Below, one piece after another: positions 12,413 to 40,766 of a stretch of 41,918 nucleotides of DNA. Numbering within the stretch: position 1 is the first letter of the stretch; every line of letters starts with the position of its first letter. The stretch comes from a virus, in IMG/VR virus record IMGVR_UViG_3300033153_004923, positions 1-41,918 of that record. One strand, given 5' to 3'. The notes below the pieces were generated by a model. The model searched no databases. It worked only from the letters and a program-made list of their open reading frames with translations, and was not told the DNA's origin. Made by a program: the position numbers and the translations under genes.

Positions 12413-15400
12413 TTAGTAGCTTTCCAAGTTCTTGTGCACACCAACCATTGCGGTCAGCCAAGGTCCGGTCCAGGCACCATCAGGTTGATAGATTCGTACC
12501 TGCAGATCGACTTGATATCTTGCACTTACGTTTGGTTCCCCTCCAAACTCAGTGAGAATCAGCCCGCCTTCTGACCACTGGGTAGTACCCCCATCCCAAG
12601 TGGCTGGTACCATACTCGGACCAGGGAACTGCTCAAATCTGACCTCTCCTGTACCAAAGTTCTTCCAGAAGAGTTGACCCCCCATAAACGTACAGGAAAT
12701 CCAAGGGTAGTCAGCTGAGAGTTCTATGTAGCCCACAAACCGTCTAGCATTGAAGAAACTCAAAGGAGTTCCTAGACTAGAGAAGTCATACCAAGGCCTG
12801 AATATAGTTGGTGAGTGAAGGGGGCCCAGTTCATCGGGTGTCCCGTCCCAAGTGCCGGTGAAGTTGTTGAACACAACACCCGTTTCGGTCACACCAACCA
12901 TCTCCCTGACAAAACCAGCCTCAGAGATACTTGTTACATCACTCTCCAATCTCAATTCGAGAAGGCTTCCTGTTTCAGTAGCGTGCTCCATAACAATCAC
13001 ATCATTGTCCAGGTCGAAGTATGTAGTGCCATCTGAAGATGTCACTACACCAGCAGTAATGTTGTTCGCATAAATCTCAGCAAATCGTCCCACATAGGCA
13101 TTGATCCGGTCCCTGTTGAGAACCCTGCTATCGTAGTAAGTGGTTGGTGCAGCTTCACCTGTTTCATAGCTGGTCCAAGCTCCAGAGCTACCAACAACCT
13201 CCTGCATCATCACTCCATCCCACATTACAGTCTCAGCTCCAACACCTTGATATAGATGGACATCAACCGTGACAGCATTAGGATCGTACTGATACTCAGT
13301 CTCGGTTGAACCATCAGGACCTATGACCCAACCATTCAGCGCCACATCCTGGTGAACTCTGTTGTATCCACCACCAAAAGCATTTACACCACTAGCTGAC
13401 ATAACGAGCTGCTCTGTCTGTGTCCCTGTTAGGTCTTTGAAGGTTAGAATCAGTCTTGGTACACTGGTGGGTACTGCTTCCAATGACTGAACATAGCTAG
13501 AGAACATATAATGTTTTCCAATCAGTGGTATACCCGGTTGACTTACCCAGTTGGTTGTATCCACTACAACACCAACCAATCCGTGAGCAGCATCACCTGT
13601 GGATTGTGGACTACCGTGGTCGTCCCAAGTATCAAACAAGTTGACGCCGAGTGGGTCTGGTCTTTCAAATGAAGAGTTGTCCAGCCAGTTAACGTGCGCG
13701 TCCCAAGCTGTTGGATTCACCTGACCGCTGGCACCAGCTGACAACACTGAAAGGTTATCAGCGTAGTCTCTACCCTTGAGCCAGTAGAAATAGAACTCAC
13801 TAGGGGCGGCATCACCATCAAGAAACTCTGTGCTACCTGCTGGTACGGTACCGATGATACTAGCACCCTCATTGGCTCTTGCCCTATAGATCTCAGTCTC
13901 TTTCAGTCCACTGGTATCATCCGTTGGTGATGTCCAGTTCAACTTGGCACCAGCACCGGGCGCACTAGCGAAACTAAGATTGACCGCTGATACATCAGGC
14001 GCAACAGTATCCAGTTTGATTAGATACTGTCCCTGCCTGCTCTCTCCAGTTGTGTGTTCTGTGTAAGCATTGAACATAATTCCAGAAGCAGGAGTGTCAT
14101 CATCAACATCCTCGAAGTTCTGACCAAGTTGCTGCCAGAACGCATCACCGTTGTAAGGGAAGTAGTTGACCCAATAGACATCAGAACCACCAGTCAGCAG
14201 TGGTGTTATCCATATAGTTGGGGCGGTGTTCAGCCATCCAAGTGAATTTGGAGCTGGCGTTGCAGTAATGTTAATACCACCAGCAATGGGCACTTCGTTG
14301 TTATCCCAAGTGACTTTGCAGAATGAGCCGAGTGCTGGTTCTGTTGTAGTATCTTCATTCCCTGCCCTATCTACAGCAGTGAAGAAGAACCAGTCAGTTT
14401 TATCAGCGCCAATTATTGCTGTGGTATCCACCAATGAGAAGCGTGATATCTCTCCTGGTACAGCATCGACTGTGCCAACGATGTACTTGTTTGCATCAGC
14501 CCAAGCACTTGCAATCTTTCCAGTTCCATAGACCTCGTTCCTCCAGATGTTGACCCTGACGAGGTCAGTATCTGATGGGTTGGTCCAACTGAAGTTGGCT
14601 ACGCTGTCAGGTGGTCTGACAATTGTCTCTGGGGTGTAAGCACTGATTGTATTACCATTCACTTTTACAACAGTTACAAACCCTGGTGGTGTGGTGTCAC
14701 CCGCAACAGTATATGCTGTCTCAAATCCCATAGGCATGTATGTCTTGTATGTGTGCGATGAGTCCAACGCAGAGACTCTTCCGTACTTCCAGGCTGCGTA
14801 TCCTTCAAATGACTCCCTAGCTTCGTCACTGAGTGGTATATCCCAGACAGCAACCTCATGCATGAAACCATGGAAATGCCTGAGGGCGATATTGTTATGA
14901 GCGCCCAGTCCGATTTGATTTGTTATTGCTCTTTGGACATCATTGGTGGTTTGGGTTCCTATGCTGGTTCCATCACGGAATGCTTCAATACCAACACCCG
15001 ACTCGATGGTGAAGATAGTGGTTTGAGGTCCTTCTTGAACATCACCCACCGTATGGAAAGATCCGTCGTAATAGTCATATCCATTTCCTGCGACATCCTG
15101 GGAAAGGGAGAAAACATCAGTCTGCACATCAAACCATTTTTCGTCTTCTATCAAATCGCCGGTTGGGCCTGGGTTGATAATAAAACCAAAAGTGTAATCA
15201 CTTGCTGGATGACTCAAAGCATCTAGATCGAAACCACCAAGTCGGGCTCTATCAAACTCAACACCAGGAAGACCATTCAGAATATCTGTACCGTATAGTG
15301 GCTGTTGGCTGGGTGTAGCCTCGACACCATCTGCTCCAATTGTAGCAGGCCACGTTGCTAGATTACTTCCGCTAGCAACAACCGGAATATCATCAGCTTT

Positions 15401-18400
15401 CAATAACTGGAAGAGAGCAGGAGAGTTTAGCTCTGGCTCCCATCGATTTGTTGTGCTCTCGTTGAAAGAAGTATCATAGGCCGTCACACCATAGACATAT
15501 CCTGAACCCGTCACAACTCCCACATCCCTGTAGGATGTGGCACCACTGGCTGAGACATCAGCTATGGTTTCCCAGATGTCTGTTCCAGGTATAGTCCTGT
15601 AGACTTTGTAACCAGCCACATCAATTTCTGGACTTGGGAACCAACTGATATCAACATAGCTCTTCCTACTAGTATCATCGATGGTATCAGTAACTAGAGC
15701 AACGCCGGTTGGTGCTGTTGGTGGTGTTGTGTCCGAACCACCTCTGAGTAAGTTCAGGTATACCCACTTAGGAGGATCAGCAGAGCTGAAGTTTCCAGAC
15801 TTGTCCTTAGTTCTGAAGAAGAAGCGATTTGGTCGTCCCGGTGTTCTTTCTATGAATGAAATAGTACCTGTGCTATCAGGAGTTACATCCAAAGTAAACC
15901 ACTCTACTGATTCAGCCCAGGAAGCAACAGGGTCATAAGCTGCATCCTTATCTACATACAAGACCACGTTCTTCAAATCAGAATCAGAAGGCATGAGCAT
16001 ATCAAAGTTCACAATCCAATCATTGATATTCCCACTGGTATCAAGAGTCATTGGTGTTCCGTTGATATCAACACTCACTATGTCGGCTGGGCCTGTTGTA
16101 TCACCTGCTGTGATTGGACCAACATCTCCGCTGCCAATCGGTGACCACAATCCACCAGTATCCTTAGCCCGCACACCATACCAGTAATCTTGACCCTCCT
16201 GTACTGCTCTATCTTTGAATTGTAATGCTCCACCAGATGGAGGAACACCAACAATACCCCAGTAGTCATCTTCACTAGTAGGAGGTGATGTTCCTATCGC
16301 TCTGAACACACCATATAGATCAACATCAGTTTCACTGTTAGCATCCCATGTGACATTTACATATGGTGCGTTGGTTTCATCTGCTTCGTTTGCTGTGGTT
16401 ACTACCACATTAGTTGGTGTGGCTGGGGGTGTATTCTCTCCTGCAACAAGAGAAGCAGGACTGGATGTTCCAAGGTCTGACCAGTTACCTGAATTATCCT
16501 TGGCTCTCATTCCATACCAATATGTCTCTCCTGGTTGTACCGCCATGTCGCGGAAGCTCAGGGCTCCGCTAGTGGGAATACCAACCACTGGCCAGTATTC
16601 ATCATCCGATGCGGGAGCACCAGTACCCTTCTTCTTGAAGACACCATATAGGTCTAGATCTGCCTCTGTATTAGCATCCCATGTCACATCCACATAGGGA
16701 GTATTGATTCCACCTGGCATCAAGGCTGTCGTAACTGCTATGTTTGTTGGTGTAGCAGGAGGAATAGTATCAATCAAACCAACGTTGTATGAAACAATCA
16801 AATTGGTTGGAGGATTGGTGACATCGTAATTTCCAGACTTGTCTCTGGTCCTAAAGAAGAATCGAACATTCTGCCCAGCAGTATTTTCAACATATTGGAA
16901 ATGCCCACTTCCATTAGGAACAACAGGAATGCTAGTGTATGGAAGTGCTATTCCCCAGTCAGTAGATGCACTGCCTGGAGAAGGATTCGTCACATAGATA
17001 TCCAAGAACCCCAAGTCACTATCGGACGGCATAATCACATCAAACTTGGCCGCTGGATAATCTATGGGTGTGTTGCTGAATCCTGTATTGACATCGTTGA
17101 GGTAGAGATCAACAGGGGCCGCTGGCCCCGTTACATCACCAATTACAATCGGACCAGGGTATCCACTACCAAGAGGCGACCAAAGACCTGCACGGTCCTG
17201 AGCCCTCATAGCATACCAGTAGGATTCACCTTCTAATACACCATAGTCTCTAGCCTGTTTTGTTCCTGAACTAGGAACTCCCATCAGTCCCCAGTAGTCA
17301 TCGTCATTCGCCGGAACTCCTGCTCCAGTCTTTCTGAACAGACCATAAAGAGCTATATCATTCTCTGGGTTTGGCCCCCATGTTATTTCAGCATACGGAA
17401 CATTGGTATTGTCTTGGTTGTTTGCACTGGTCACCACGATACCCGTAGGAGCTACCGGTGGCGTTGTATCAAAGAGAGGGTTGATTATGAAATCCATCTG
17501 AGCCCAAGGAGGAGTGCCAGAATTCTTGTTTCCAGACCAGTCATACCCTTCGAAGAAGAATACAGAGGATGAAGAATTTGCACCAGTAGATGCTGGGAGA
17601 TCAGTGTAGACCATTCCACCATATGTGCTTGGGTCATGGAATATGGGAGCAAACGGAACCCCACTAGTGAATACGTCGGCTATAGCACCATCACTGCTCG
17701 GTCCAGGATATCGATAGATCACTGTCTTTCTGTAATCTGCATCAGAGGGTGCCAGCACCTTGAACCAAGAAATATAATCAACGTTGTTCGCAGCAGAGAG
17801 AGTAATGGGTGCGTCATTCACCAACACATCAGTGATGTCAGCTGGCGATGTAGTATCACCAGCCACTATAGATGCTGGAGTAGAAGTTCCAAGAGAAGAC
17901 CAATTACCGGCTCTGTCTTGTGCTCTCATGCCATAGAAGTAAATAGTCCCCTCTTGAACTCCAAAATCTCTATGCTGGAGGGTACCTGAAGAAGGAACAC
18001 CAACTAGTGGCCAAAATTCATCTTCAGAAGGAGCACCCGCTCCGGTCTTACGGAAGATACCATACTGGGCCATGTCAGACTCTGAGTTAGCATCCCATGA
18101 GATTGCAACATATGGTGAGTTGTTTTCATCACTAGTGTTGGCTGTTGAGATCACTATGTTTGTTGGAGCAGCAGGCGGCGTACTATCATTAGGAGGATAT
18201 GCCAGGAAATCTACCTGAGCCCACGGTGGAGTACCACTGGCTGTATTTCCAGAGAGATCATATGACTCAAAGAAGAACACAGAAGAAGTGTTGAGACCAT
18301 CAAAAGCCCCTTTGTCTGAGTAGACAAAACCACCCCACCCAGAGTGTTCATCCTTCTGCACATCCTGTATCAAAGACCCACTTGCTAGAAGATCATCAAT

Positions 18401-21400
18401 TGCGCCATCGCTAGATGCGCCTGGGTATCGATAGACCTTAGTGTGCGTGTAATCAGCATCTGGGGGGTTCTTCATCTTGAACCAAGCAACATACTCTGAT
18501 GTGTTGGCAGCAGAGAGAGTAGCCCAGGCATCATTGATGGTCACACCAGTGATATCAGCAGGTGCTACGTTATCTCCAGCAAGAATGTAATCGGTCGGGA
18601 AAGCCATGGGACGGTAGGACTCATATGGATGTCCTGCCACAAGAGGGATATCCCACTTGTAGGATTCGTGACCTTCCCATTTTTGTATGTTTGGTACGCC
18701 AAGAGCAGCAGCACTGTCTGACACAAAAACAAACTCATGCATGAATCCGTCAAAATGCCTCAAAGCCTCTGAGTGGAGTTGACCTAGCCCAACAGCTGCC
18801 CCAGCACTACTAGTTGCGAGACCTGCCCAAGTACCACCACCTAAGAGCTCACCGTCTCTATAAACATCACCACCGTCTGTACTATCCAACCTCAAGACGA
18901 GCATTTGCGCTCCTGATTGAGTTACTCCTATATTATGGCTTGTTCCATCATAATAGCGATGCTCGCTCGGTTCAGTAAGCGTAAAGAACCATGCCCCATC
19001 TGCACTAGAAAACAAGTGAGTAGCCTCAGGCAGATCAGCACCTGTAGCATTTGGAGAAATAACAAAACCAAGAGTAAGTTCTGTATGACCACCACCAAGT
19101 CCACTCATCATGTCATTCAAACGCATACCAAAACCACTAGCGTTGATAAACTCAACACCGGGTTTTCCGTTTTGTATGTTCGTCCGATAGATGGGTTGTT
19201 TGTCTGAATCGGTCTGGTAAGCATCAATACCCAGACCTTCAACACTATTGGAATTAGGCCAGGTAGCTATATGCTCCCCATCAGCAACCCCCGGTATGAG
19301 ATCAGCCCTAAGATCTTCAACTACTGGCCAGTTGCCACTAAAGTTTTGATCTGCGAGTATCCATTCAGAGAAATCTTCATTGAAAGACTTATCGTAGGCA
19401 GTAACACCATACGCATAGCCAGAACCAGTAATGACATCATAGTCTCGATATGAGCGGTCTCCTGTTGCTGAGATGTCAGTGACGTATCGCCATTCCTTTG
19501 TGGTTCCTGCTATTGTCTTGTAGATTCGGTAACCAGCCAGATCAGTAGCTGTCACTATGGGCCACGAGATGTCCACATAGCTCTTCCTGCTGGTATCATG
19601 GATAGTATCACTGAAAAGACTGATGGTGTCTGGATGACTCGGTGCTGTCTTATCTCCTATGCCCTCTTGGAAAGTAACTCTCGCATAGACTGGTGGATTG
19701 TCAGTATCAAAGTTACCAGACTTGTCCTTTGATCTGAAGAAAAAGGTCTCTGTGACTCCTGGTCTTCTCTGTATAAAACTGAACGTTCCGGTTGAATCCG
19801 GGGTTACCGTCATTGTTCTATAGTGATTTGATTCAGCTCTAGCCCAAGCAGAAGGAACAGACCCTCCTTGATTATCAGTGTATATTTCCAGACTCTTCAA
19901 GTCGGAATCTGATGGCATCAATACTTGGAAAAAAGCCATTGGATCATCAATGGTTAGACTAAAATCAGTACCATAGTCGGCATCATTGATGTTGATATTC
20001 ACAGGAGGAGAAGGACCAACGATATCTCCTGCTACAATGGAACTAGGAACACCACTACCGAGTGGGGACCAGTGCCCTGCGCGATCTTGAGCACGCATAG
20101 CATACCAGTAGGTCTCACCTTGCTGTACACCAAAGTGTTGGTATATTAGAGCCCCTGAGCTAGGCACATTAACGAGACCCCAGTAGTCGTCTTCACTCGT
20201 AGGAACACCAGCACCTGTTTTTCTGAAAACACCATAGGTAGCAATATCATTCTCTGGGTTAGGTCCCCATGTCAACTGCACATATGGTAGGTGTGCTTCG
20301 TCGTCCACATTGGCAGTTGTGACTACAATACCCGTAGGTGCTACTGGTGGAGTAGTATCTTCTAGTGGATTCACTATGAAGTCGAGCTGTGCCCACGGTG
20401 GGGTACTGGCGTTCTTGTTACCAGAATAATCATAACCCTCGAAGAAGAAAACAGAAGAAGAGGATTGGTCTCCTTCATAAGCTGCCAGATCGGTGTATAC
20501 CAACCCACCGTAGGTGTCGGGAGCATGGAAGATAGGAGCGAACGGAACACCACTAGAGAACAGGTCAGCAATAGCACCATCAGTGGTAGGTCCTGGGTAT
20601 CTATAGACAATGGTCTTTCGATAGTCAGAGTCAGAAGGTGATTTGATTTTGAGCCAGGAAATATAATCGGTGTTGTTGGCTGCAGAAAGTGTAATGACTG
20701 AGTCATTCGATAACACTTCAGTGATATCTGCAGGAGCCACAACATCACCAGCTACAATAGAGGATGGGACACCACTAACCATGGGTGACCAATGTCCAGC
20801 TCTATCTTGTGCTCTTAGTCCGTACCAGTAGGTCTCTCCCTCTTGTACTCCGAAATCTCTAGCTTGGAGTGTTCCAGAACTAGGAGTAGTAAAGAGACCC
20901 CAATAGTCGTCTTCATTGTCCGGAACACTAGCGCCTGTTTTTCTAAACAACCCATAGAGTGCTATATCAATCTCTGGGTTTGGGCCCCAGGTTGCTTCAA
21001 CATACGGGGCGTTTGTTTCATCAACAAGATTGTTCGATGTTAATACCAGACCAGTGGGAGCTACAGGAGGAGTCACATCATTGGGTGGGTATGGTAGGAA
21101 ATCAAGCTGCGCCCAGGGAGGAGTACTTGCATTCTTGTTTCCAGATCTATCGTAGCCCTCGAAGAAGAATACCGAAGATGAGTTGAGTCCATCATATGCA
21201 TCCTTATCGGAATAAAGGAAACCACCATAACTGTCGGGATCTGTGTATATAGCAGGGAAAGGAACACCACTTGCGAACAGATCAGCAATAGCACCGTCTG
21301 TGCTGGGACCAGAGTACCTATAGAGAAGCATCTTCTCAAAATCACCATCAGCAGGAGCTAAGATCTTGAACCATCCCATGTACTCCGAGGTGTTGCTGGC

Positions 21401-23587
21401 TGATAGCGTCAGGTGTACATCATTGACGAGAACACCAGTAATGTCGGCTGGTGGTGTTACATCACCTGGAGCAATTGAGGTCGGAACACTGTATCCCAGA
21501 TCAGACCAATTACCGGCTCTGTCTTGCGCTCGAAGACCGTACCAATATGTTTCTCCTGACTGCAGTCCGACGTTTGTGAACTCTCGGGCTCCAGAAGAAG
21601 GAACACCAGCAATGCCCCAGTAATCATCAGGACTACTAGGAGCACCAGCTCCGGTTTTCCTGAAGATACCATAGAGTGTTATGTCTGCTTCTGGGCTGGG
21701 TCCCCATGTCAGATGCGCATATGGTAGGTTGGTATTGTCATTGATATTGCCCTCTGTTAGAACAATACCAGTAGGTGCGGCTGGTGGTGTTGTATCATTA
21801 CCAGGGAATGGCAAGAAGTCTATTTGTGCCCACGGAGGGGTGCCAGCGTTCTTGTTGCCTGACCTATCGTACCCCTCAAAGAAGAACACAGATGAAGAGT
21901 TGCTCCCATCATAGGCTTCTTTTTCAGAGTAGATCAGTCCAGCCCAAGTGCTGGGATCATGGAACAGAGGAGCAAATGCCACACCACTACTGAAGAGATC
22001 AGCAATAGCGCCATCTGTACTCGCACCAGCATAACGATACACCACTGTCTTGTAGTAGTCTGCATCGGCAGGAGATAGGATATTCATCCAGGCCATGTAT
22101 TCAGTAGTGTTGGTTGCAGAAAGTGTAAGGAATGAGTCATTTGCTAACACGCCGGTAATCTCAGCGGGTGCAGTAATGTCGCCAGCGACTATGTCTCCTG
22201 GAGTTCCAGAGCCGATGAGAGACCACTGTCCAATCGTATCCTGCGCTCGAACACCATACCAGTAGGTCTGTCCTTCTTGGACACCCATGTCTCGATACTG
22301 AAGATCACCAGATGGCGGAACTCCAACTACCGGCCAGTAGTCGTCATCATATGCTGGTGCTGTAGTTCCTGTTTTCTTGAAAACACCATACTGGGCAATA
22401 TCCGTCTCGGGGTTGTGTCCCCAGGCGATATCCACAAAAGAAGCGTTGGTTTCATCAGCCAGCAATCCGGTTGTTGTTGTAACTCCCGTAGGAGCAACTG
22501 GACGTACATTGTCCTGTGCAACAATAGGACCAGGGAGACCATATCCCATATCAGACCAGTTTCCTGCTCTATCTTGGGCTCTCAGGCCATACCAATATGA
22601 CTGCCCTTTCTGAACACCAAAGTCTCGATGCTGACGGATTCCTGATGAGGGGATACCAAGAAGACCCCAGTATTCATCATCATTTGCAGGAGGCGTTGCT
22701 CCTGTTTTTCTGAAGAGTCCATACTGTGACAAATCTGGCTCTGGGCTTGGACCCCAATTAACTTGAACGTAGATGCTGTCAGGCTGACCAGGAAGCGCAT
22801 CACTCGTGAGTGTGATGCCAGTAGGAGCAGCCGGTGGTGTCACATCCACAGTGACATTGGCTAGGAAATCAATCTCTCCCCAAGGTGGAGTACCAACAGG
22901 TACGTTACCCCAGATATCAACAGACTGGAAGAAGAAGACCGAGGTGTCGTTGTATCCCTGTGCTGCCTGCTGATCAGTGTAGACAAACCCACCCCATGTC
23001 GATGGAGCCATAAATATAGTCTGGACAGTAACACCACTGCTGTATAGATCAGCGATAGCGCCATCTGCTTGTGGACCAGCATATCTAAACACATTGACTT
23101 TCTGGAAATCTGTATCATCAGGAGCAAATATCTTGAACCAAGCAACATACTCGGAGTCGGTGTTTCCTGAGAAGGCCATTGGAGAATCATTGATGAGAAC
23201 ACCAGTAATCGCAGCAGGAGGGGCAGTGTTGGCCACTACAATGGGGAGACCGGTTGGTTCTGCCTTAGCAGAATGAGCAAGACCTATATCAAATGCATCA
23301 ACCGCATACCAATAGCTGGATGCAGGGATCATGTTGAGATCCTGGTAGTATGGAATAGGGTCAGCAGCCAAGGTGGCTATGGAGGTATACACACCACTCT
23401 GTGTTCCTCGATATACAGTGTATCCTCGAAGATCTGCTTCTTGGTTGGGACCCCACAGTAGCTCCACATAAGGAGTGAGACCATTGGCTATGCCAGTGGT
23501 GATCTCCACACCAGTTGGTGTTGCTGGGGCTATAGAGTTGCCAAACCCAGATGGACTAGCCCATCCAGGAAGTACTATTTCGGGCAT
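12413..23587 (-). CDS. Giant multidomain fibre/adhesin with fibronectin-III-like repeats and two LamG-like domains
   Basis: One uninterrupted frame codes 3724 residues, over a quarter of the window. AGGAG lies 11 bases before the ATG. About 12 fibronectin-III-like modules (type A; WGPNPE, then GETYWYGLRAQDRAG) alternate with about 10 related modules (type B; DGAIADLFSSG, then SSVFFFEGYD). Each is about 110-130 residues and is joined by TPPAAPTG-type linkers. Two concanavalin/LamG-like domains lie at about 1420-1665 and 2727-2960 (DLRADLIPG, FDGFMHE). Residues 3297-3484 resemble a carbohydrate-binding jelly roll (WLDNSSFERP). The C-terminus has RINAYVGRFAEIYANNITAG, as in host-specificity tail proteins. 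It is probably a receptor-binding or surface-adhesion fibre; whether on tail or head is unknown. Confidence 0.88.
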   Translation of the reverse strand: MPEIVLPGWASPSGFGNSIAPATPTGVEITTGIANGLTPYVELLWGPNQEADLRGYTVYRGTQSGVYTSIATLAADPIPYYQDLNMIPASSYWYAVDAFDIGLAHSAKAEPTGLPIVVANTAPPAAITGVLINDSPMAFSGNTDSEYVAWFKIFAPDDTDFQKVNVFRYAGPQADGAIADLYSSGVTVQTIFMAPSTWGGFVYTDQQAAQGYNDTSVFFFQSVDIWGNVPVGTPPWGEIDFLANVTVDVTPPAAPTGITLTSDALPGQPDSIYVQVNWGPSPEPDLSQYGLFRKTGATPPANDDEYWGLLGIPSSGIRQHRDFGVQKGQSYWYGLRAQDRAGNWSDMGYGLPGPIVAQDNVRPVAPTGVTTTTGLLADETNASFVDIAWGHNPETDIAQYGVFKKTGTTAPAYDDDYWPVVGVPPSGDLQYRDMGVQEGQTYWYGVRAQDTIGQWSLIGSGTPGDIVAGDITAPAEITGVLANDSFLTLSATNTTEYMAWMNILSPADADYYKTVVYRYAGASTDGAIADLFSSGVAFAPLFHDPSTWAGLIYSEKEAYDGSNSSSVFFFEGYDRSGNKNAGTPPWAQIDFLPFPGNDTTPPAAPTGIVLTEGNINDNTNLPYAHLTWGPSPEADITLYGIFRKTGAGAPSSPDDYWGIAGVPSSGAREFTNVGLQSGETYWYGLRAQDRAGNWSDLGYSVPTSIAPGDVTPPADITGVLVNDVHLTLSASNTSEYMGWFKILAPADGDFEKMLLYRYSGPSTDGAIADLFASGVPFPAIYTDPDSYGGFLYSDKDAYDGLNSSSVFFFEGYDRSGNKNASTPPWAQLDFLPYPPNDVTPPVAPTGLVLTSNNLVDETNAPYVEATWGPNPEIDIALYGLFRKTGASVPDNEDDYWGLFTTPSSGTLQARDFGVQEGETYWYGLRAQDRAGHWSPMVSGVPSSIVAGDVVAPADITEVLSNDSVITLSAANNTDYISWLKIKSPSDSDYRKTIVYRYPGPTTDGAIADLFSSGVPFAPIFHAPDTYGGLVYTDLAAYEGDQSSSSVFFFEGYDYSGNKNASTPPWAQLDFIVNPLEDTTPPVAPTGIVVTTANVDDEAHLPYVQLTWGPNPENDIATYGVFRKTGAGVPTSEDDYWGLVNVPSSGALIYQHFGVQQGETYWYAMRAQDRAGHWSPLGSGVPSSIVAGDIVGPSPPVNININDADYGTDFSLTIDDPMAFFQVLMPSDSDLKSLEIYTDNQGGSVPSAWARAESNHYRTMTVTPDSTGTFSFIQRRPGVTETFFFRSKDKSGNFDTDNPPVYARVTFQEGIGDKTAPSHPDTISLFSDTIHDTSRKSYVDISWPIVTATDLAGYRIYKTIAGTTKEWRYVTDISATGDRSYRDYDVITGSGYAYGVTAYDKSFNEDFSEWILADQNFSGNWPVVEDLRADLIPGVADGEHIATWPNSNSVEGLGIDAYQTDSDKQPIYRTNIQNGKPGVEFINASGFGMRLNDMMSGLGGGHTELTLGFVISPNATGADLPEATHLFSSADGAWFFTLTEPSEHRYYDGTSHNIGVTQSGAQMLVLRLDSTDGGDVYRDGELLGGGTWAGLATSSAGAAVGLGQLHSEALRHFDGFMHEFVFVSDSAAALGVPNIQKWEGHESYKWDIPLVAGHPYESYRPMAFPTDYILAGDNVAPADITGVTINDAWATLSAANTSEYVAWFKMKNPPDADYTHTKVYRYPGASSDGAIDDLLASGSLIQDVQKDEHSGWGGFVYSDKGAFDGLNTSSVFFFESYDLSGNTASGTPPWAQVDFLAYPPNDSTPPAAPTNIVISTANTSDENNSPYVAISWDANSESDMAQYGIFRKTGAGAPSEDEFWPLVGVPSSGTLQHRDFGVQEGTIYFYGMRAQDRAGNWSSLGTSTPASIVAGDTTSPADITDVLVNDAPITLSAANNVDYISWFKVLAPSDADYRKTVIYRYPGPSSDGAIADVFTSGVPFAPIFHDPSTYGGMVYTDLPASTGANSSSSVFFFEGYDWSGNKNSGTPPWAQMDFIINPLFDTTPPVAPTGIVVTSANNQDNTNVPYAEITWGPNPENDIALYGLFRKTGAGVPANDDDYWGLMGVPSSGTKQARDYGVLEGESYWYAMRAQDRAGLWSPLGSGYPGPIVIGDVTGPAAPVDLYLNDVNTGFSNTPIDYPAAKFDVIMPSDSDLGFLDIYVTNPSPGSASTDWGIALPYTSIPVVPNGSGHFQYVENTAGQNVRFFFRTRDKSGNYDVTNPPTNLIVSYNVGLIDTIPPATPTNIAVTTALMPGGINTPYVDVTWDANTEADLDLYGVFKKKGTGAPASDDEYWPVVGIPTSGALSFRDMAVQPGETYWYGMRAKDNSGNWSDLGTSSPASLVAGENTPPATPTNVVVTTANEADETNAPYVNVTWDANSETDVDLYGVFRAIGTSPPTSEDDYWGIVGVPPSGGALQFKDRAVQEGQDYWYGVRAKDTGGLWSPIGSGDVGPITAGDTTGPADIVSVDINGTPMTLDTSGNINDWIVNFDMLMPSDSDLKNVVLYVDKDAAYDPVASWAESVEWFTLDVTPDSTGTISFIERTPGRPNRFFFRTKDKSGNFSSADPPKWVYLNLLRGGSDTTPPTAPTGVALVTDTIDDTSRKSYVDISWFPSPEIDVAGYKVYRTIPGTDIWETIADVSASGATSYRDVGVVTGSGYVYGVTAYDTSFNESTTNRWEPELNSPALFQLLKADDIPVVASGSNLATWPATIGADGVEATPSQQPLYGTDILNGLPGVEFDRARLGGFDLDALSHPASDYTFGFIINPGPTGDLIEDEKWFDVQTDVFSLSQDVAGNGYDYYDGSFHTVGDVQEGPQTTIFTIESGVGIEAFRDGTSIGTQTTNDVQRAITNQIGLGAHNNIALRHFHGFMHEVAVWDIPLSDEARESFEGYAAWKYGRVSALDSSHTYKTYMPMGFETAYTVAGDTTPPGFVTVVKVNGNTISAYTPETIVRPPDSVANFSWTNPSDTDLVRVNIWRNEVYGTGKIASAWADANKYIVGTVDAVPGEISRFSLVDTTAIIGADKTDWFFFTAVDRAGNEDTTTEPALGSFCKVTWDNNEVPIAGGINITATPAPNSLGWLNTAPTIWITPLLTGGSDVYWVNYFPYNGDAFWQQLGQNFEDVDDDTPASGIMFNAYTEHTTGESRQGQYLIKLDTVAPDVSAVNLSFASAPGAGAKLNWTSPTDDTSGLKETEIYRARANEGASIIGTVPAGSTEFLDGDAAPSEFYFYWLKGRDYADNLSVLSAGASGQVNPTAWDAHVNWLDNSSFERPDPLGVNLFDTWDDHGSPQSTGDAAHGLVGVVVDTTNWVSQPGIPLIGKHYMFSSYVQSLEAVPTSVPRLILTFKDLTGTQTEQLVMSASGVNAFGGGYNRVHQDVALNGWVIGPDGSTETEYQYDPNAVTVDVHLYQGVGAETVMWDGVMMQEVVGSSGAWTSYETGEAAPTTYYDSRVLNRDRINAYVGRFAEIYANNITAGVVTSSDGTTYFDLDNDVIVMEHATETGSLLELRLESDVTSISEAGFVREMVGVTETGVVFNNFTGTWDGTPDELGPLHSPTIFRPWYDFSSLGTPLSFFNARRFVGYIELSADYPWISCTFMGGQLFWKNFGTGEVRFEQFPGPSMVPATWDGGTTQWSEGGLILTEFGGEPNVSARYQVDLQVRIYQPDGAWTGPWLTAMVGVHKNLESY
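14700..16425 (-). repeat. Second copy of a four-domain block (A-B'-A'-LamG) inside the fibre gene
   Basis: Residues about 2387-2962 of the fibre contain, in order, a type-A fibronectin-like module, a variant B' module (MPSDSDL, then FFFRTKDKSGNF), a variant A' module (DTSRKSYVDISW, GSGYVYGVTAYD) and a LamG-like domain (FRHG-free, FHGFMHE). The same order and signatures occur at 18590-20345. The copies are diverged, so this is an old duplication. Confidence 0.75.
18590..20345 (-). repeat. First copy of the four-domain block (A-B'-A'-LamG) inside the fibre gene
   Basis: Residues about 1082-1666 of the fibre show the order type A, B' (MPSDSDL, FFFRSKDKSGNF), A' (DTSRKSYVDISW, GSGYAYGVTAYD), LamG-like (HFDGFMHEFVF). 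It matches the block at 14700-16425. Between the two blocks lie further A and B modules, so the gene grew by both single-module and multi-domain duplication. Confidence 0.75.
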
Positions 23588-26093: not shown

Positions 26094-27047
26094 CTACCCT
26101 CCTAGGTATGCTTTGAGTGATTCCAGACTCACTCCGTTAAATGCCGTCTCATAACCCTTGGCTATCCCTTCTCTGATTTTCTTGGGATCTACATCCAGGG
26201 TGCTAGTCTGTTGCTGATTGAGCCAAGCTCGGCTCGGCATGAGGACGTTGATATCTAGAAAGATATCATTTTCATCAGCGCAATTTCCATCTAAAACTGC
26301 CAAATTCCTGTTTAGGGCGACAGACAGATCATTATGGAAGATCTCGGTTTGCATGCTCCAGAGGGCACTCGTCCATACCTTGTAGACCCTGTCAATCTTG
26401 CCTGTTGAGTATCCACCCGATAATGGGTTGGTCAGGATGACATCGATCTGATCTGCTCCCTGTTCAATGGCTGCCTTCAATGGAGCGTTCTCCATGACTC
26501 CTCCATCTACATACAAAGGACCACTACCTTTGGTGTCTCCTTCTGGAGGGAAGATACCAGGAATGGCGGTGCTAGCATAGATCAGTTTCCTGAATGCATC
26601 GCGGGTCAGTCCTTCATCATTAGTGAAAAGATGGAATGTCTTCCCTCTCAGTTCTACCACTCCTACACCAACACGTAAGAGACCTCTACCATTGTAGACT
26701 CTATTGATCAGCTTCTTAAGTGGTTTGGTACCATAGAGATGGTCCTTGAATAGAAGGTTCAGGGGCCAGAAGAAACTCTTGGTGAAGAGGTCCTTGTAGC
26801 TCTTGATCTTCAACCACTCCTCTTCCAGGTGCAACACATCTGAAAATCTACCACCAGCCAGGGCACAAGCCTGGAGAGCCCCGGTTGATACCCCATAAGC
26901 AAAGTCCCAGGGCAAGACCCAATCATTGGGTGGTTGCTGTTTGATGCCATCATTTTGCTCTCTATATATCTTGGTAGCCAGCCCTTTGATTGCTCCTACT
27001 TGAAATGAACCCTTTGATCCTCCACCAGATAAGACTAACGCTCTCAT
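26094..27047 (-). CDS. Patatin-like phospholipase
   Basis: This 317-residue protein has the complete patatin signature. The oxyanion-hole loop is SGGGSKG at residues 7-13, the nucleophile elbow is GVSTG at 52-56 (Ser54), and the catalytic Asp lies in VDGGVMENAPL at 180-190 (Asp181). STAIPGIFPPE before it is typical. Patatins hydrolyse acyl chains from phospholipids with a Ser-Asp dyad. There is no signal peptide or clear transmembrane helix. A very strong site, AGGAGGAGAG, precedes the ATG. The gene is within 10 bases of its neighbours in the packaging operon, so it is probably made late with virion proteins. It could act on host membranes at entry or at lysis. Confidence 0.9.
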   Translation of the reverse strand: MRALVLSGGGSKGSFQVGAIKGLATKIYREQNDGIKQQPPNDWVLPWDFAYGVSTGALQACALAGGRFSDVLHLEEEWLKIKSYKDLFTKSFFWPLNLLFKDHLYGTKPLKKLINRVYNGRGLLRVGVGVVELRGKTFHLFTNDEGLTRDAFRKLIYASTAIPGIFPPEGDTKGSGPLYVDGGVMENAPLKAAIEQGADQIDVILTNPLSGGYSTGKIDRVYKVWTSALWSMQTEIFHNDLSVALNRNLAVLDGNCADENDIFLDINVLMPSRAWLNQQQTSTLDVDPKKIREGIAKGYETAFNGVSLESLKAYLGG

Positions 27048-27055
27048 CTCTCCTC

Positions 27056-27961
27056 CTAGTGCATCATGGCTGCTTCATTCCCAATGAAGCGCCTTGCGTT
27101 TAAGTTGTGGGCCTGAATGGCCTGTAGTGCTCTCTGTCTCTCGGTGCTAGCACCAGAAGACTGAGCTATTCTGAAATCTCCAGCTCCGAAGTCCAAGTAG
27201 TTGGTAGCTCCTAGTTTACTGGCTAGAGCATTGGCTCCCACCACTGCCCCATAGCCCACAGTAGCAGCCACATCAAAGACCAGTGCTGTAGTGAAGACAG
27301 TAGAGAGAGCACCCATGGTACGGAGCCCCATGTACTTGAGTACAGCTCCTGATGTTTTGCGCTGAGCCATAGCGGCTGTTCTCTTTTCAACAATGCTTCT
27401 ATCGACGGCTAGATCCATCCGTACGCCTGCTCCTCTAAGAGCCTCTCCTCTGTATCCACCCAACATCCATCTTCCACGCGTATACCTCAGGTTAGATTTT
27501 GTGGTCATTCCTGCTTCCTTGGCCATACCAGGAAGACCCTCATCCATGAGTTGAGTCACAGCCATTTTTCGGTTGCGATATCCCATTTTTGAGTTGAATT
27601 CTTGAATGCCACCCTTGGAGAACATATTGATCCCCTTCATGGCCTGTGATTCTGTCTTGCTCAAAACAGTCATACTACCACCACCGAAGAATCCACCAGC
27701 GCCCTGTAATCCTTTCTGTAACCACCTTCTGTCTGTCTTCTCAGCTAGGGTCTGGAACATTCCCTTAGAGACACCACCACCAACAAAGAAAGTACCGGGC
27801 CATCTCATTATGCCCGAACTAGCAGCGTTGAAGTACATACCTGGAGTGTACATCAACCTCCAAGTAGCTAGCTTAGCCTGCGAAGACGGAGTAGCTCCTA
27901 GTAGATCTGCTGCGGAGAGTCCGTGGAACTCAGCTGATTGGCTATCGTTACGATTGCGCAT
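27056..27961 (-). CDS. Basic Gly/Ala-rich protein with a hydrophobic segment, possible ejected virion protein
   Basis: This 301-residue protein is coupled to the previous gene by a TAATG overlap; its own ribosome binding site is weak. It is basic and Gly/Met-rich (GGFFGGGSM, MLGGYRGEALRGAGVRM). Near residues 215-245 it has a hydrophobic stretch (STVFTTALVFDVAATVGYGAVV) that could cross a membrane. The last 50 residues are polar with QRALQAIQAHNLNARRF. No family recognised. It stands with two other basic proteins immediately before the patatin. That grouping suggests internal virion proteins delivered with the DNA, but this is inference. Confidence 0.7.
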   Translation of the reverse strand: MRNRNDSQSAEFHGLSAADLLGATPSSQAKLATWRLMYTPGMYFNAASSGIMRWPGTFFVGGGVSKGMFQTLAEKTDRRWLQKGLQGAGGFFGGGSMTVLSKTESQAMKGINMFSKGGIQEFNSKMGYRNRKMAVTQLMDEGLPGMAKEAGMTTKSNLRYTRGRWMLGGYRGEALRGAGVRMDLAVDRSIVEKRTAAMAQRKTSGAVLKYMGLRTMGALSTVFTTALVFDVAATVGYGAVVGANALASKLGATNYLDFGAGDFRIAQSSGASTERQRALQAIQAHNLNARRFIGNEAAMMH

Positions 27962-36404: not shown

Positions 36405-36713
36405 ATGTTGATTTATCTTGCTGGTCCGATGACAGGGATAGTTGAGATGAACTACCCTCGGTTCTTCCAGGTGGAGGAGCTGTTGGTAGGCATGGGTGTA
36501 GAGGTGATGAACCCTGCACGTAACGTGGGTCCTGAGTACAGTGATTTCATGGAGCAGGGGTTGATGCAGTTGGAAGAGTGTGAGTGTGTGGTGCTGTTGG
36601 AGGGGTGGGAGGCTAGTAGTGGTGCGTTGGTAGAGGTAGAGAGAGCGAGTGAGCTTGGTATCAGTGTGTTCACACTGGATGAGTTCATCATGATGATGGG
36701 TGGTGGTGAGTAG
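36405..36713 (+). CDS. DUF4406 / nucleoside 2-deoxyribosyltransferase-like protein
   Basis: The frame is also open from a TTG at 36348, but the ATG at 36405 has GGAAGGA 7-14 bases upstream and starts directly at the conserved strand, giving 102 residues. Motifs are those of the family: MLIYLAGPMTG, MNYPRFFQVEELL, VMNPARNV, LEECECVVLLEGWEASSGALVE. Family members resemble nucleoside 2-deoxyribosyltransferases, which exchange bases on deoxyribose or cut nucleotides, though phage versions are largely untested. The Glu in ALVEVERA may be the nucleophile. It is the first gene of the rightward arm. Confidence 0.88.
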   Translation: MLIYLAGPMTGIVEMNYPRFFQVEELLVGMGVEVMNPARNVGPEYSDFMEQGLMQLEECECVVLLEGWEASSGALVEVERASELGISVFTLDEFIMMMGGGE

Positions 36714-37220: not shown

Positions 37221-37253
37221 CTCTAGATGGGGGGGAGTAAGGAAGGTACTCCC

Positions 37254-37821: not shown

Positions 37822-37835
37822 TCTCTAACCAATGG

Positions 37836-37876
37836 GAGGGGATCACTCATCTGAGTGGTCCTCTCCTGTTTTTTTA
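37836..37876 (+). terminator. Rho-independent terminator 1 of the right arm
   Basis: A stem of about 14 pairs (GAGGGGATCACTCA with TGAGTGGTCCTCTC, two wobbles) and a tiny loop is followed by a G and seven T. This is a strong terminator. Related G-rich hairpins recur after several other genes of this arm. Confidence 0.8.
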
Positions 37877-37879
37877 TAT

Positions 37880-37900
37880 GGGCATAGGTGTGCTATGTCC
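37880..37900 (+). promoter_or_regulatory. Conserved dyad element, copy 1
   Basis: GGGCATAG (37880-37887), loop GTGTG, CTATGTCC (37893-37900). The stem of 8 pairs includes one G-U pair that is kept in all copies. It lies right after the T run of the terminator and just before the AAGGAAGG site of the next gene. Confidence 0.75.
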
Positions 37901-37921
37901 GTATCAAGGAAGGAAAGTACA

Positions 37922-38203
37922 ATGTTGATCATTATGATCATCGTCATCGTTCTGGTTGCTCTAGTCGCCATTCAGCCCACATGGGTATGGAAAAAGCTCA
38001 ACCGTGCGTCGACTGATCGTGGTCACTTCAGGGCATCAAGGTGCATCAACAAGATCTGGTGGGTGCACATTCAACTCAACTACAGAGTGAGAAAGGCGCT
38101 CTTCCTTCTGCACTTCGATATCTACGTTCCGTTGAGACACAAAGTGATGTTCTCGCGTAGAGTGTATCCTGTCTTGAGGAAGATCGGATACTTCAGGAAC
38201 TAA
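37922..38203 (+). CDS. Small basic membrane-anchored protein
   Basis: AAGGAAGGAAAG precedes the ATG at 37922; the product has 93 residues. Residues 1-19 are strongly hydrophobic (MLIIMIIVIVLVALVAIQP), a single membrane anchor, and the rest is highly basic and aromatic (VWKKLNRASTDRGHFRAS, then HKVMFSRRVYPVLRKIGYF). A short anchor followed by a positive cytoplasmic part suggests a protein at the inner side of the host membrane. No family recognised. The gene has its own terminator-dyad leader. Confidence 0.7.
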   Translation: MLIIMIIVIVLVALVAIQPTWVWKKLNRASTDRGHFRASRCINKIWWVHIQLNYRVRKALFLLHFDIYVPLRHKVMFSRRVYPVLRKIGYFRN

Positions 38204-38211
38204 CAACAAGG

Positions 38212-38239
38212 GAGGGGTCATCCACAAGGGTGGCCTCTC
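38212..38239 (+). terminator. Related hairpin without T run
   Basis: GAGGGGTCATCC (38212-38223), loop ACAA, GGGTGGCCTCTC (38228-38239): 12 pairs with three wobbles, same family as the right-arm terminators. No T run follows, so read-through is expected; it may instead protect the RNA end or space genes. Confidence 0.5.
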
Positions 38240-38264
38240 TCATTTCAAGGAAGGAAGTAAGACA

Positions 38265-38528
38265 ATGTCATCGAATGACGCTGGTACACTCTCAAAGGTG
38301 GAGACCGAGATCTCTCCTGACTACGCTCTTCTCAGAGTGATGGCGATTGATGGGAAGGTCAAGTACGCCAAGTCAGTAGACAGTCGGTTCACCATGGAAA
38401 TCACTCCCGAGGGCACTCACTTCTGGTTTGGGCCCTATCTCGTGACTGACTTCCATGAGATCACCATGCATGTGGATTTGCTGGATGAGATCCTCTGCAA
38501 GCAGGGGCCGCTCATCTGCACCAAGTAG
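38265..38528 (+). CDS. Small hypothetical protein
   Basis: AAGGAAGGAAG precedes the ATG with a short spacer. The 87-residue protein has a polar start (MSSNDAGTLSKVETE) and then beta-like strands (YALLRVMAIDGKVKYAKSVD, RFTMEITPEGTHFWFGPYLV). A helix follows (DFHEITMHVDLLDEIL). It resembles a small single-domain alpha/beta protein; no family recognised. A strong terminator lies 11 bases after the stop. Confidence 0.7.
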   Translation: MSSNDAGTLSKVETEISPDYALLRVMAIDGKVKYAKSVDSRFTMEITPEGTHFWFGPYLVTDFHEITMHVDLLDEILCKQGPLICTK

Positions 38529-38538
38529 CCAGTACATG

Positions 38539-38579
38539 GAGAGGGGTCACCAACAGTGGTGGCCTCTCTCTGTTTTTTT
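38539..38579 (+). terminator. Rho-independent terminator 2 of the right arm
   Basis: GAGAGGGGTCACCA (38539-38552) pairs with TGGTGGCCTCTCTC (38557-38570) over 14 positions with two wobbles, loop ACAG, followed by seven T (38573-38579). Confidence 0.82.
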
Positions 38580-38583
38580 ATAC

Positions 38584-38604
38584 GGGCATAGGCAAGCTAT
38601 GTCC
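38584..38604 (+). promoter_or_regulatory. Conserved dyad element, copy 2
   Basis: GGGCATAG (38584-38591), loop GCAAG, CTATGTCC (38597-38604), preceded by TTTTTTTATAC. Stem and flanks are identical to copy 3; only the loop differs. Confidence 0.78.
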
Positions 38605-38634
38605 GCATTTCAACTCAACAAGGAAGGAAGAATC

Positions 38635-39174
38635 ATGAGATTCACGACTGATGAATCCAATGTGTACAAGGCTCTCAAGGCTGCCATCCAGAATGGTGCC
38701 ACGGAGACTGTACAGCTGATCCACCAGGCTATCGTGGATGGGCTCGGACTCAAGGGTAAGAAGGCTGAGAAGGCTGCCCTGGCTGAGCGCATATTCGAAG
38801 TGGTTGGTGCGGTCAACGCTGAGAAACACAAGGAAGGTCGTCAGGCGGCAGATCACTTCGGTGACATGCTCTCCTCGAAGACCTCCATCATCATCGATGA
38901 AGAGACTGTGGCCATCAAGGTCGGCTCTCTTCGTGCGGTGGTTGTGTGGCATCAGACGCAATACCAGGCTCGGCATGGTGGGCGTACTGAGGCTCGGCGT
39001 GTTGCTGCTGCTGAGAAGATCGAGAAAGCTCGGGATCTCCTCACGGCAGACGACATCTCGGTCAAGAAGCAGCTGGCTGATCTGGGTAGAATCATCCGGG
39101 TCGACGCTGCTGTCACAATCGGTGGGTTTGTCCAGAATCGTCTGAACAAGCTCTCCAAGAAGCTGGACAAGTAG
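38635..39174 (+). CDS. Hypothetical Lys/Ala-rich helical protein
   Basis: AAGGAAGG lies 9 bases before the ATG at 38635, so the longer frame from 38455, which overlaps the previous gene, is rejected. The product has 179 residues. It is mostly helical with many Ala, Lys and Glu residues (VYKALKAAIQNGATETVQL, AARRVAAAEKIEKARDLL pattern). Residues 90-110 form a strand pair (SIIIDEETVAIKVGSLRAVVVW). It has no membrane segment. A DNA-binding or structural role is possible; no family recognised. Confidence 0.72.
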   Translation: MRFTTDESNVYKALKAAIQNGATETVQLIHQAIVDGLGLKGKKAEKAALAERIFEVVGAVNAEKHKEGRQAADHFGDMLSSKTSIIIDEETVAIKVGSLRAVVVWHQTQYQARHGGRTEARRVAAAEKIEKARDLLTADDISVKKQLADLGRIIRVDAAVTIGGFVQNRLNKLSKKLDK

Positions 39175-39190
39175 TCTAGTTGACAGTGAG

Positions 39191-39228
39191 GGAGGGGTGG
39201 ACTCTTGTCCACCTCTCCTTCTTTTTTT
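39191..39228 (+). terminator. Rho-independent terminator 3 of the right arm
   Basis: GGAGGGGTGGAC (39191-39202), loop TCTT, GTCCACCTCTCC (39207-39218): 12 pairs with one wobble, followed by a T run at 39222-39228. Confidence 0.82.
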
Positions 39229-39232
39229 ATAC

Positions 39233-39253
39233 GGGCATAGAGAGGCTATGTCC
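39233..39253 (+). promoter_or_regulatory. Conserved dyad element, copy 3
   Basis: GGGCATAG (39233-39240), loop AGAGG, CTATGTCC (39246-39253), again following T7-ATAC and followed by CGCTTT. The loop differs from the other copies while the stem is identical. Confidence 0.78.
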
Positions 39254-39281
39254 GCTTTACGTTAACCAAGGAAGGAACGTA

Positions 39282-40109
39282 ATGAGACACGGACGCTTGG
39301 TGCTTCCGTACACTGAAGAGATATGGATGCCATGCTTCATCTGTGGGGTGAGAACACCCTTCAGAGACGAGTTGACAAACTTTCCCTTCTGTGGACTGTT
39401 GCATCATGACAAGGCAGCTGAGCTGATGGATCCTGGTCCTGCCAGGTATGCAACGGCTAAGTTCTGTCCAGTCAAGGCCAACAACAAGGGCGTCATAAAC
39501 TCTTGCACGCACGATAAGGGTGATAACCTCACCTGTAAGGACTGTGCTAAGAAGTTTGTGCGCACTTGCGAATGGTACGACGATTGCCCGATGTCTCCCA
39601 TGAACCATCCCAAGGTTATGTTGATAGCCGGGATGAGTGGTTACTACTGGGGCTTCAGGCCTCATACTGACCACTACTCGGGGGATGATGATCGGGTGCT
39701 CGCAGAGAGTGACTATCTCTTGGACACCGCCTATGATATCGAACAGGATACCATAGAGGGTGTGCTTGATGAGGACACTCCTGATGGACTGCCTGAGTGT
39801 GAGGATGATGGTGATGATCATGTACCTATGGGTATACTGGGCATCATCGACAATCCGCACATGGTGGCTATTGTCAGTGGTGAGGAGTCTGACTTCTACA
39901 CTGAGAATGACACCATTGGTCGCATGGATCCTCATGTGATCACTCGGGTGCACTTCCGTAAGACAACTCCGGATATCCCGTTCCTCAAGGGTATGGGAAG
40001 GACGGAGAAACAGTGTGTCTGCTACTCTCGCACCGTCAAGGAGTGGGAGAAGGACGAAGAAGGACCACTGTTGACACCGGAGCAGATTCGCAAGATCCTC
40101 TGCTCCTAA
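39282..40109 (+). CDS. Cys-rich hypothetical protein with possible zinc clusters
   Basis: AAGGAAGG precedes the ATG at 39282; the product has 275 residues. The first 110 residues hold many Cys in pairs and near His: PCFICGVRTPF, FPFCGLLHHD, KFCPVK, NSCTHD, CKDCAKKFVRTC, DDCP. This suggests one or two zinc clusters or disulfide-free metal sites. The middle is acidic (DDDRVLAESDYLLDTAYD) and the end is helical with CVCYSR and PEQIRKILCS. No known family can be named. Such Cys-rich phage proteins may bind nucleic acid or host transcription factors; this is inference. Confidence 0.72.
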   Translation: MRHGRLVLPYTEEIWMPCFICGVRTPFRDELTNFPFCGLLHHDKAAELMDPGPARYATAKFCPVKANNKGVINSCTHDKGDNLTCKDCAKKFVRTCEWYDDCPMSPMNHPKVMLIAGMSGYYWGFRPHTDHYSGDDDRVLAESDYLLDTAYDIEQDTIEGVLDEDTPDGLPECEDDGDDHVPMGILGIIDNPHMVAIVSGEESDFYTENDTIGRMDPHVITRVHFRKTTPDIPFLKGMGRTEKQCVCYSRTVKEWEKDEEGPLLTPEQIRKILCS

Positions 40110-40166: not shown

Positions 40167-40766
40167 ATGAGAGTCTTCGTGACAATCACTACTGGTCGCA
40201 ATGGACGGGATGACCTCCTGGACCTTGCTGCGAATAGTGTGTTGGGCCTCATCTTTGCTTCGGATACGGAGCTTGGACAGAGGCACCCGGAGATTGGCGC
40301 TGACTGGATTCTGTGCCTGGAACGCTGCCAGGATATCCAGGACAACTGGTCGGTTGCCAGCACGACGGTGGAAGTCCCCATGGATGATGAGGACTATCAC
40401 CTGACCAACAAGGGCCTGTACTCGTTCATGAGCGAGAAGGGCTATCACGGGGCTGAGTGCCAGGTCATGGTCACCGGACGCCGGGAGTCTGGGCCTGCCT
40501 ACGCTGTCTGCCTCATCACTGAGTGGTTCAGCAAGAAGGAAGGAGACAAGAACATGTCGGAAGCGACCAAGGAGACTACCCCCAAGGAGAATCTCCACAT
40601 GCTCGTCGATGGTGTCAAGGGCACTGTCGTGGGATCCGCTGGTCTGGGTGTGACGGCTACCAAGAAGGCTTGGGGTCTGCTCTCGGACATCGCTGGCATG
40701 AGCAAGGCTGCTGGAGCTGCCATGAAGGAGCACCGGGCTGAGCAGAAGGCCAAGGATCGCAAGTAG
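40167..40766 (+). CDS. Hypothetical two-part protein with in-frame internal start
   Basis: AAGGAAGG precedes the ATG at 40167; the product has 199 residues. Residues 1-129 form an alpha/beta part (MRVFVTITTGRNGRDDLLDL, ILCLERCQDIQDNW, CQVMVTGRRESGPAYAVCLI). From residue 130 a second part begins, MSEATKETTPKENLHML, followed by a hydrophobic/glycine stretch (GTVVGSAGLGVTATKKAW) and a Lys/Ala-rich end. The second part has its own AAGGAAGGAG site and ATG at 40554 in the same frame. It may be two genes fused in frame or one gene with two products. No family recognised. Confidence 0.7.
   Translation: MRVFVTITTGRNGRDDLLDLAANSVLGLIFASDTELGQRHPEIGADWILCLERCQDIQDNWSVASTTVEVPMDDEDYHLTNKGLYSFMSEKGYHGAECQVMVTGRRESGPAYAVCLITEWFSKKEGDKNMSEATKETTPKENLHMLVDGVKGTVVGSAGLGVTATKKAWGLLSDIAGMSKAAGAAMKEHRAEQKAKDRK
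40554..40766 (+). CDS. Possible separate 70-residue protein from an internal start
   Basis: AAGGAAGGAG (40535-40544) precedes an ATG at 40554 that is in frame with the larger gene. The product would be MSEATKETTPKENLH... with a Gly/Val-rich stretch and a basic end. The same binding-site sequence starts almost every gene of this arm, so independent translation is likely; no stop separates it from the larger frame. Confidence 0.5.
   Translation: MSEATKETTPKENLHMLVDGVKGTVVGSAGLGVTATKKAWGLLSDIAGMSKAAGAAMKEHRAEQKAKDRK

Follow-up and report, generated by a model that had tools for sequence, protein, structure and literature searches.

We found that a block of small rightward genes (36.4–41.1 kb) in a 41.9-kb fragment of a large uncultured virus (a phage) contains a repeated putative control site of 33 letters, which lies directly behind a predicted transcription stop and before three small genes. 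The window, as used here, is the whole stretch of DNA that was analysed (41,918 nucleotides). Three intergenic gaps of this block share one order of parts, namely a 15-bp hairpin with a 4-base loop, TTTTTTT, ATA(C/T), GGGCATAG-N5-CTATGTCC, G, and then AAGGAAGG and ATG. The reading that we prefer, with a probability of roughly 45%, is that the cassette is a phage-specific control site of unit starts that would be read as double-stranded DNA, that is, as an operator or a promoter. That the ligand would be DNA rather than RNA, and that the site would control initiation, are steps that we infer.

In cassette 1, a terminator hairpin with a 15-bp stem and a 4-base loop (37834..37867, + strand) is followed by T7-ATAT (37869..37879, +) and by the dyad GGGCATAG-GTGTG-CTATGTCC (37880..37900, +), whose outer pair is T37879-G37901. 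The corresponding elements, also on the + strand, are found at 38538..38571 (hairpin), 38573..38583 (T7-ATAC) and 38584..38604 (dyad GGGCATAG-GCAAG-CTATGTCC, outer pair C38583-G38605) in cassette 2, and at 39188..39221, 39222..39232 (T7-ATAC) and 39233..39253 (dyad GGGCATAG-AGAGG-CTATGTCC, outer pair C39232-G39254) in cassette 3. These three dyads are the exact matches to GGGCATAG-N5-CTATGTCC in the window (n=3), and all lie in the sense-strand orientation, 5–15 nt upstream of AAGGAAGG. When three mismatches were allowed, six strand-matches were observed, compared to a mean of 0.28 and a maximum of 2 in 100 shuffles, and the T7 run was present only in the three cassettes when both strands of the window were considered. 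The repetition itself is real. The shared terminator, T7 and dyad order that the original prediction had described for three gaps was therefore borne out, with exact dyads and a count that the shuffles never reached. The gaps, which it had placed at 37836-37922, 38539-38635 and 39191-39282, do exist, with true limits of 37822-37921, 38529-38634 and 39175-39281; the loops, which it had taken to differ completely, are mostly variable, but their last base is G in 3/3 copies, so that the right arm becomes GCTATGTCCG. The dyad stem has a ninth pair, Y-G, which is C-G in two copies and U-G in one, and copy 1 reaches 12 pairs. As a separate observation, reading frames across the cassettes are open into the downstream gene (37832-38203, 38455-39174 and 39180-40109); the ATG within the right arm shares the frame of the downstream gene in copies 1 and 2 but is followed by a stop after five codons in copy 3, and no ribosome binding site precedes this ATG.

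An intrinsic terminator consists of a GC-containing stem of sufficient length and a short loop, with a U-tract at once after it. The stems in the three gaps have 14–15 pairs by one count and 15–18 by another, of which 8–9 are G-C, with a 4-base loop and T7 directly after, and the gaps fold far better than their shuffles (z of −5.2 to −7.6). All three gaps thus carry a predicted intrinsic (Rho-independent) terminator.

In an alignment anchored on the dyad, the core was invariant at 28/29 positions in the three copies, compared to 7/52 in the flanks. Compensatory changes on both sides affect 8 of the 14 terminator pairs, indicating that the region has diverged enough for paired changes to show. 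In the dyad helix, by contrast, 8/9 pairs are invariant and none is changed on both sides, the ninth pair being C-G or U-G. The asymmetry of the half-sites (GGG versus GGA) is retained in all copies, the G-U position included, and the 5-base centre is free in sequence and fixed in length. Since the terminator stems diverged with compensation while the dyad arms stayed unchanged, it is the sequence of the dyad, and not just its folding, that appears to be selected, and we regard selection at the sequence level as almost certain. The earlier suggestion that the sequence is recognized, beyond the fold, is supported by the fixed arms and the fixed G-U pair next to terminator stems that compensate. 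Outside the dyads, the half-site GG(A/G)CATAG occurs three times, about the chance expectation. This pattern of conservation argues for a sequence-specific ligand and fits either DNA or RNA; the arms show no compensation, their half-sites are asymmetric, and the centre is free in sequence but fixed in length, all of which tilts toward a DNA ligand, the last two traits being as in dimer operators. That the three copies crowd into 1.4 kb of a single phage and are absent elsewhere could also reflect a recent duplication without function, to which we give hardly any credence: the terminator stems, loops and post-dyad stretches are near random while the arms are unchanged, and the downstream genes are not paralogous.

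The DNA-site reading has points against it, in that there are three copies in one phage and none in relatives, no sense promoter could be recognised, the window yielded no DNA-binding protein, the dyad also folds as RNA, and its position just upstream of the ribosome binding site suits an RNA element too. It is possible, if doubtful, that the element acts as a 9–12 bp hairpin at or near the mRNA 5' end, where a phage RNA-binding protein or nuclease would bind it and the hairpin would set the stability, processing or translation of the downstream gene. A stable hairpin forms in every copy (z about −4, −13 to −15 kcal/mol), the single stem change from C-G to U-G preserves pairing, the copies occur in sense orientation only and near the ribosome binding site, and the U-tract of copy 1 can pair with AAGGAA of the binding site. 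However, the dyad stem is without covariation and its imperfect G-U pair is never improved, a free loop of fixed length is unusual for RNA-binding sites, and a hairpin at the 5' end would presuppose a promoter located after the terminator and ahead of the dyad, where none was seen.

The relation between stop and dyad can be followed in a gap of the same block that lacks the dyad. This "empty" gap (38204-38264) contains a related hairpin (38210..38241, +) without T7, ATAY or dyad, which leads straight into ATTTC-AAGGAAGG. A 30-nt stretch of this hairpin is 87% identical to the hairpin of cassette 2 (covariance score 28.3 bits); after ...CCTCTCTC the empty gap continues directly as ATTTCAAGGAAGG, whereas cassette 2 reads ...CCTCTCTC-TGTTTTTTTATAC-dyad-GC-ATTTCAACTCAACAAGGAAGG. 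The other dyad-free gaps of the rightward block showed no T-tract either. T7-ATAY and the dyad are therefore together in 3/3 gaps and both missing in gap 38204-38264, so that U-tract, ATAY and dyad behave as a single module, and their joint presence or absence is consistent with a module that starts a further transcription unit behind each stop. This co-occurrence is the best argument linking the dyad to the opening of a unit after a stop. The same clean presence/absence contrast, together with conserved arms around a variable centre and the arrangement as terminator-gene units, could be expected of a module boundary or recombination site, either of moron-like swapped units or of tyrosine-recombinase sites recalling dif. 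We consider this very improbable: the variable centres would prevent a tyrosine recombinase from joining the sites to each other, the likeness to dif as judged by eye is limited to the inner GCATA/TATGT of the arms, no recombinase was recognised in the window, and no relative was found with changed gene content between dyads.

The ribosome binding site has to be kept apart from this module. AAGGAAGG is found at 37906..37913, 38620..38627 and 39268..39275 (all +) as the ribosome binding site of the genes 37922-38203, 38635-39174 and 39282-40109, respectively, 6–8 bases ahead of the ATG. The motif also stands before other genes of the block, 7 of the 10 rightward genes in all, four of them dyad-free, and no leftward gene has it. 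The strong ribosome binding site that had been counted as a part of the cassette is thus general to the rightward block, and because it is found with or without the dyad we treated it separately. At the 37254 gene, AAGGAAGG forms part of the loop of a hairpin with the arms GGGAGTA/TACTCCC (37232-37253), which extends to the start codon, and AAGGAAGG with an in-frame ATG at 40554 is present within the 40167-40766 gene (40536-40556), a possible internal start that would give a shorter product. The block also contains a gene resembling DUF4406 or nucleoside 2-deoxyribosyltransferase (36405-36713, +). On the leftward strand, a 3724-aa gene (12413-23587, −) lies between terminase and portal, and by eye its N-terminus is fibronectin-type-repeat-like rather than that of a tape measure; at 26094-27047 and 27056-27961 (−), a gene that starts MRALVLSGGGSKGSFQVGAIKG and carries a GVSTG motif appears patatin-phospholipase-like by eye, and its neighbour has GGGVSKG.

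A sigma70 promoter consists of TTGACA-like and TATAAT-like hexamers, 16–18 bp apart and upstream of the gene. No sense-strand −35/−10 pair of this kind was common to the gaps (best matches of 8, 6 and 9 of 12), which leaves the conserved element as the only candidate signal. On the opposite strand, a weak host-type (sigma70-like) site, CGGACA-17-TATAAA, a candidate only, overlaps the dyad at 37873..37901, 38577..38605 and 39226..39254 (−), and the dyad spans the antisense −35 up to the edge of the antisense −10. If this promoter fired leftward from each gap under the control of a repressor on the dyad, expression of the upstream gene would be lowered by the antisense transcript. Although the site has a 9/12 match and 17-bp spacing in 3/3 copies, TATAAA on the minus strand is confined to the three cassettes, and such a promoter would account for the conserved ATAY and the asymmetric right arm, we consider it quite improbable: it is a post hoc find, dinucleotide shuffling of the core equalled it 7–14 times in 500, its −10 is without the final T and its −35 matches at 4/6, the A-run follows of necessity from the U-tract of the terminator, and its direction is ill-suited to the punctuation of a rightward operon.

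It is unlikely, though conceivable, that T7-ATAY-GGGCATAG-N5-CTATGTCCG is itself a new kind of promoter fused to a terminator, without −35/−10 and read by a phage-specific polymerase or sigma factor; if so, each gene unit would have its own stop and start in ~75 bases. In favour of the DNA-site reading, too, a phage-specific start signal is possible, since the remote relatives MTATph1 and G005 have sigma-factor-like proteins and a 234-kb relative, G020 (L034, L056), encodes a protein resembling RNA polymerase beta in an open frame of 1239 aa. The window itself gave no match to a sigma factor or polymerase, and no gene for a DNA-binding protein or repressor was recognised in its 41.9 kb. The PF00940 profile (T7-type polymerase) gave no match in the window and 10 relatives, a result to be read with the control genomes, which also gave none, and with the incompleteness of the phage. 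The promoter of the N4-type virion RNA polymerase is a hairpin with a conserved 3-base loop in which purines are recognised (PMC4496689); the cassette does not match this kind, its loop having 5 variable bases. The idea first proposed, that a promoter sets transcription going again behind every terminator, agrees with the layout, but the copies share no sense −35/−10 and no relative was found with the element.

Relatives were picked by head protein and terminase and included contigs of 108–248 kb. One contig from another sample (L014; IMGVR_UViG_3300033144_004187) is the same phage at 99.6% identity and extends the genome beyond window position 1; the dyad is absent from it. Head-protein identity to the other relatives was 35–73%. 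The search of the whole window and its relatives that had been proposed for the dyad yielded the three window copies and none among 21 related phage contigs, weak evidence of absence given that many of these are fragments without an identifiable same block; the sole match with three mismatches among them (G009) pairs incompletely. With a covariance model of the cassette, 15 records gave only weak matches outside the window, to other sequences or dyad-free hairpins, and a terminator followed by a dyad was found at none of 14 loci. Exact and relaxed dyad patterns returned no convincing copy from IMG/VR, where the exact dyad occurs only within coding sequence (L004/L005) and at one intergenic place in an unrelated contig, L006. 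The L006 site, GTAGGGCATAG-CACAT-CTATGTCCTAC, has an 11-bp stem ~40 nt ahead of a start; it was rejected as a relative, since by a rough count chance alone should produce several matches to a 16-base pattern in a collection of this kind. L006 also has six copies of a TTTCATA-N3-TATGAAA dyad, a candidate for a control site in that phage. No dyad with T4ATAY was found in GTDB representatives, and a GTDB match with AAGGA lies within a dnaN-like gene and was set aside as chance. The 179-aa cassette gene had no protein relatives, and no Rfam family matched at the cassettes; a Xer/dif site and a riboswitch were also considered, and were rejected or unsupported.

Under the DNA-site reading, which we continue to prefer, an intrinsic terminator would close each upstream unit, with its U-tract abutting the control site, and a 21–23 bp imperfect operator-like dyad (half-sites GG(G/A)CATAG, free 5-bp centre) would open the next one. 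The units so opened would be 37922 with 38265, then 38635, and 39282 with 40167 and possibly 40829. A putative factor that the phage encodes or modifies, probably either a dimer or an alternative initiation factor, would bind the dyad and set when transcription of the unit begins. The coupling of dyad and terminator gives a clear prediction, namely a stop plus a restart, and if a new type of promoter or operator is indeed present, the cassette would be a compact insulated gene-start part.

Among known systems, the closest kind appears to be the ESAS/SAS elements of cluster K mycobacteriophages, in which a 13-bp GGGATAGGAGCCC at the ribosome binding site is accompanied by 17-bp imperfect inverted repeats with a variable spacer, and for which the authors named a promoter or an operator as options and favoured a DNA-binding protein (PMC3203893). 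In the gene 90-91 gap of Adephagia, a stem-loop, an inverted repeat with a promoter, a conserved RBS motif and a start follow one another, and the promoter there has sense SigA-like −35/−10 hexamers with a spacing of 17–18 bp (PMC11373665). As in ESAS/SAS, the cassette has a repeated imperfect inverted repeat with a variable spacer sequence just upstream of a conserved RBS motif, located between genes, before non-structural genes and in one orientation, and, as in Adephagia, the dyad lies behind a terminator-like stem-loop. Unlike ESAS/SAS, the cassette is unrelated in sequence, with AAGGAAGG in place of GGGATAGGAGCCC, its arms are 8–9 bp around a fixed 5-bp centre rather than 17 bp, no sense SigA-like hexamers are common to the copies, and there are three copies only (in the fragment), each behind a T7 terminator. 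In cluster EG Microbacterium phages, the available portion of the report describes 18-bp inverted repeats, GATCAACC-NN-GGTTGATC, 14–22 bp upstream of starts, which resemble the cassette as short intergenic inverted repeats conserved amid diverged surrounding DNA, but which are perfectly symmetric with a 2-bp centre and, in that portion, have no coupled terminator reported (PMC7302621). The 17-bp dyads of cluster O mycobacteriophages likewise have invariant arms and a variable centre, although they are symmetric with a 3-bp centre, number >30 copies, often lie within genes and occur in either orientation (PMC4351075). The SPBRE of Bacillus phage SPbeta was, like the cassette, a repeated intergenic phage element first seen in silico, and was later shown to be an operator bound by MrpR; according to the available part of its report, it differs as a 15-bp motif at promoters of a temperate prophage, with no link to a terminator mentioned in that part (PMC10516654). 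Overall, several actinobacteriophage clusters are reported to have short inverted repeats upstream of gene starts, and the cassette adds an independent case with a new sequence in an unrelated large phage, together with features mostly missing from earlier reports: each dyad is paired with a strong terminator, and one gap of the block naturally lacks both the U-tract and the dyad.
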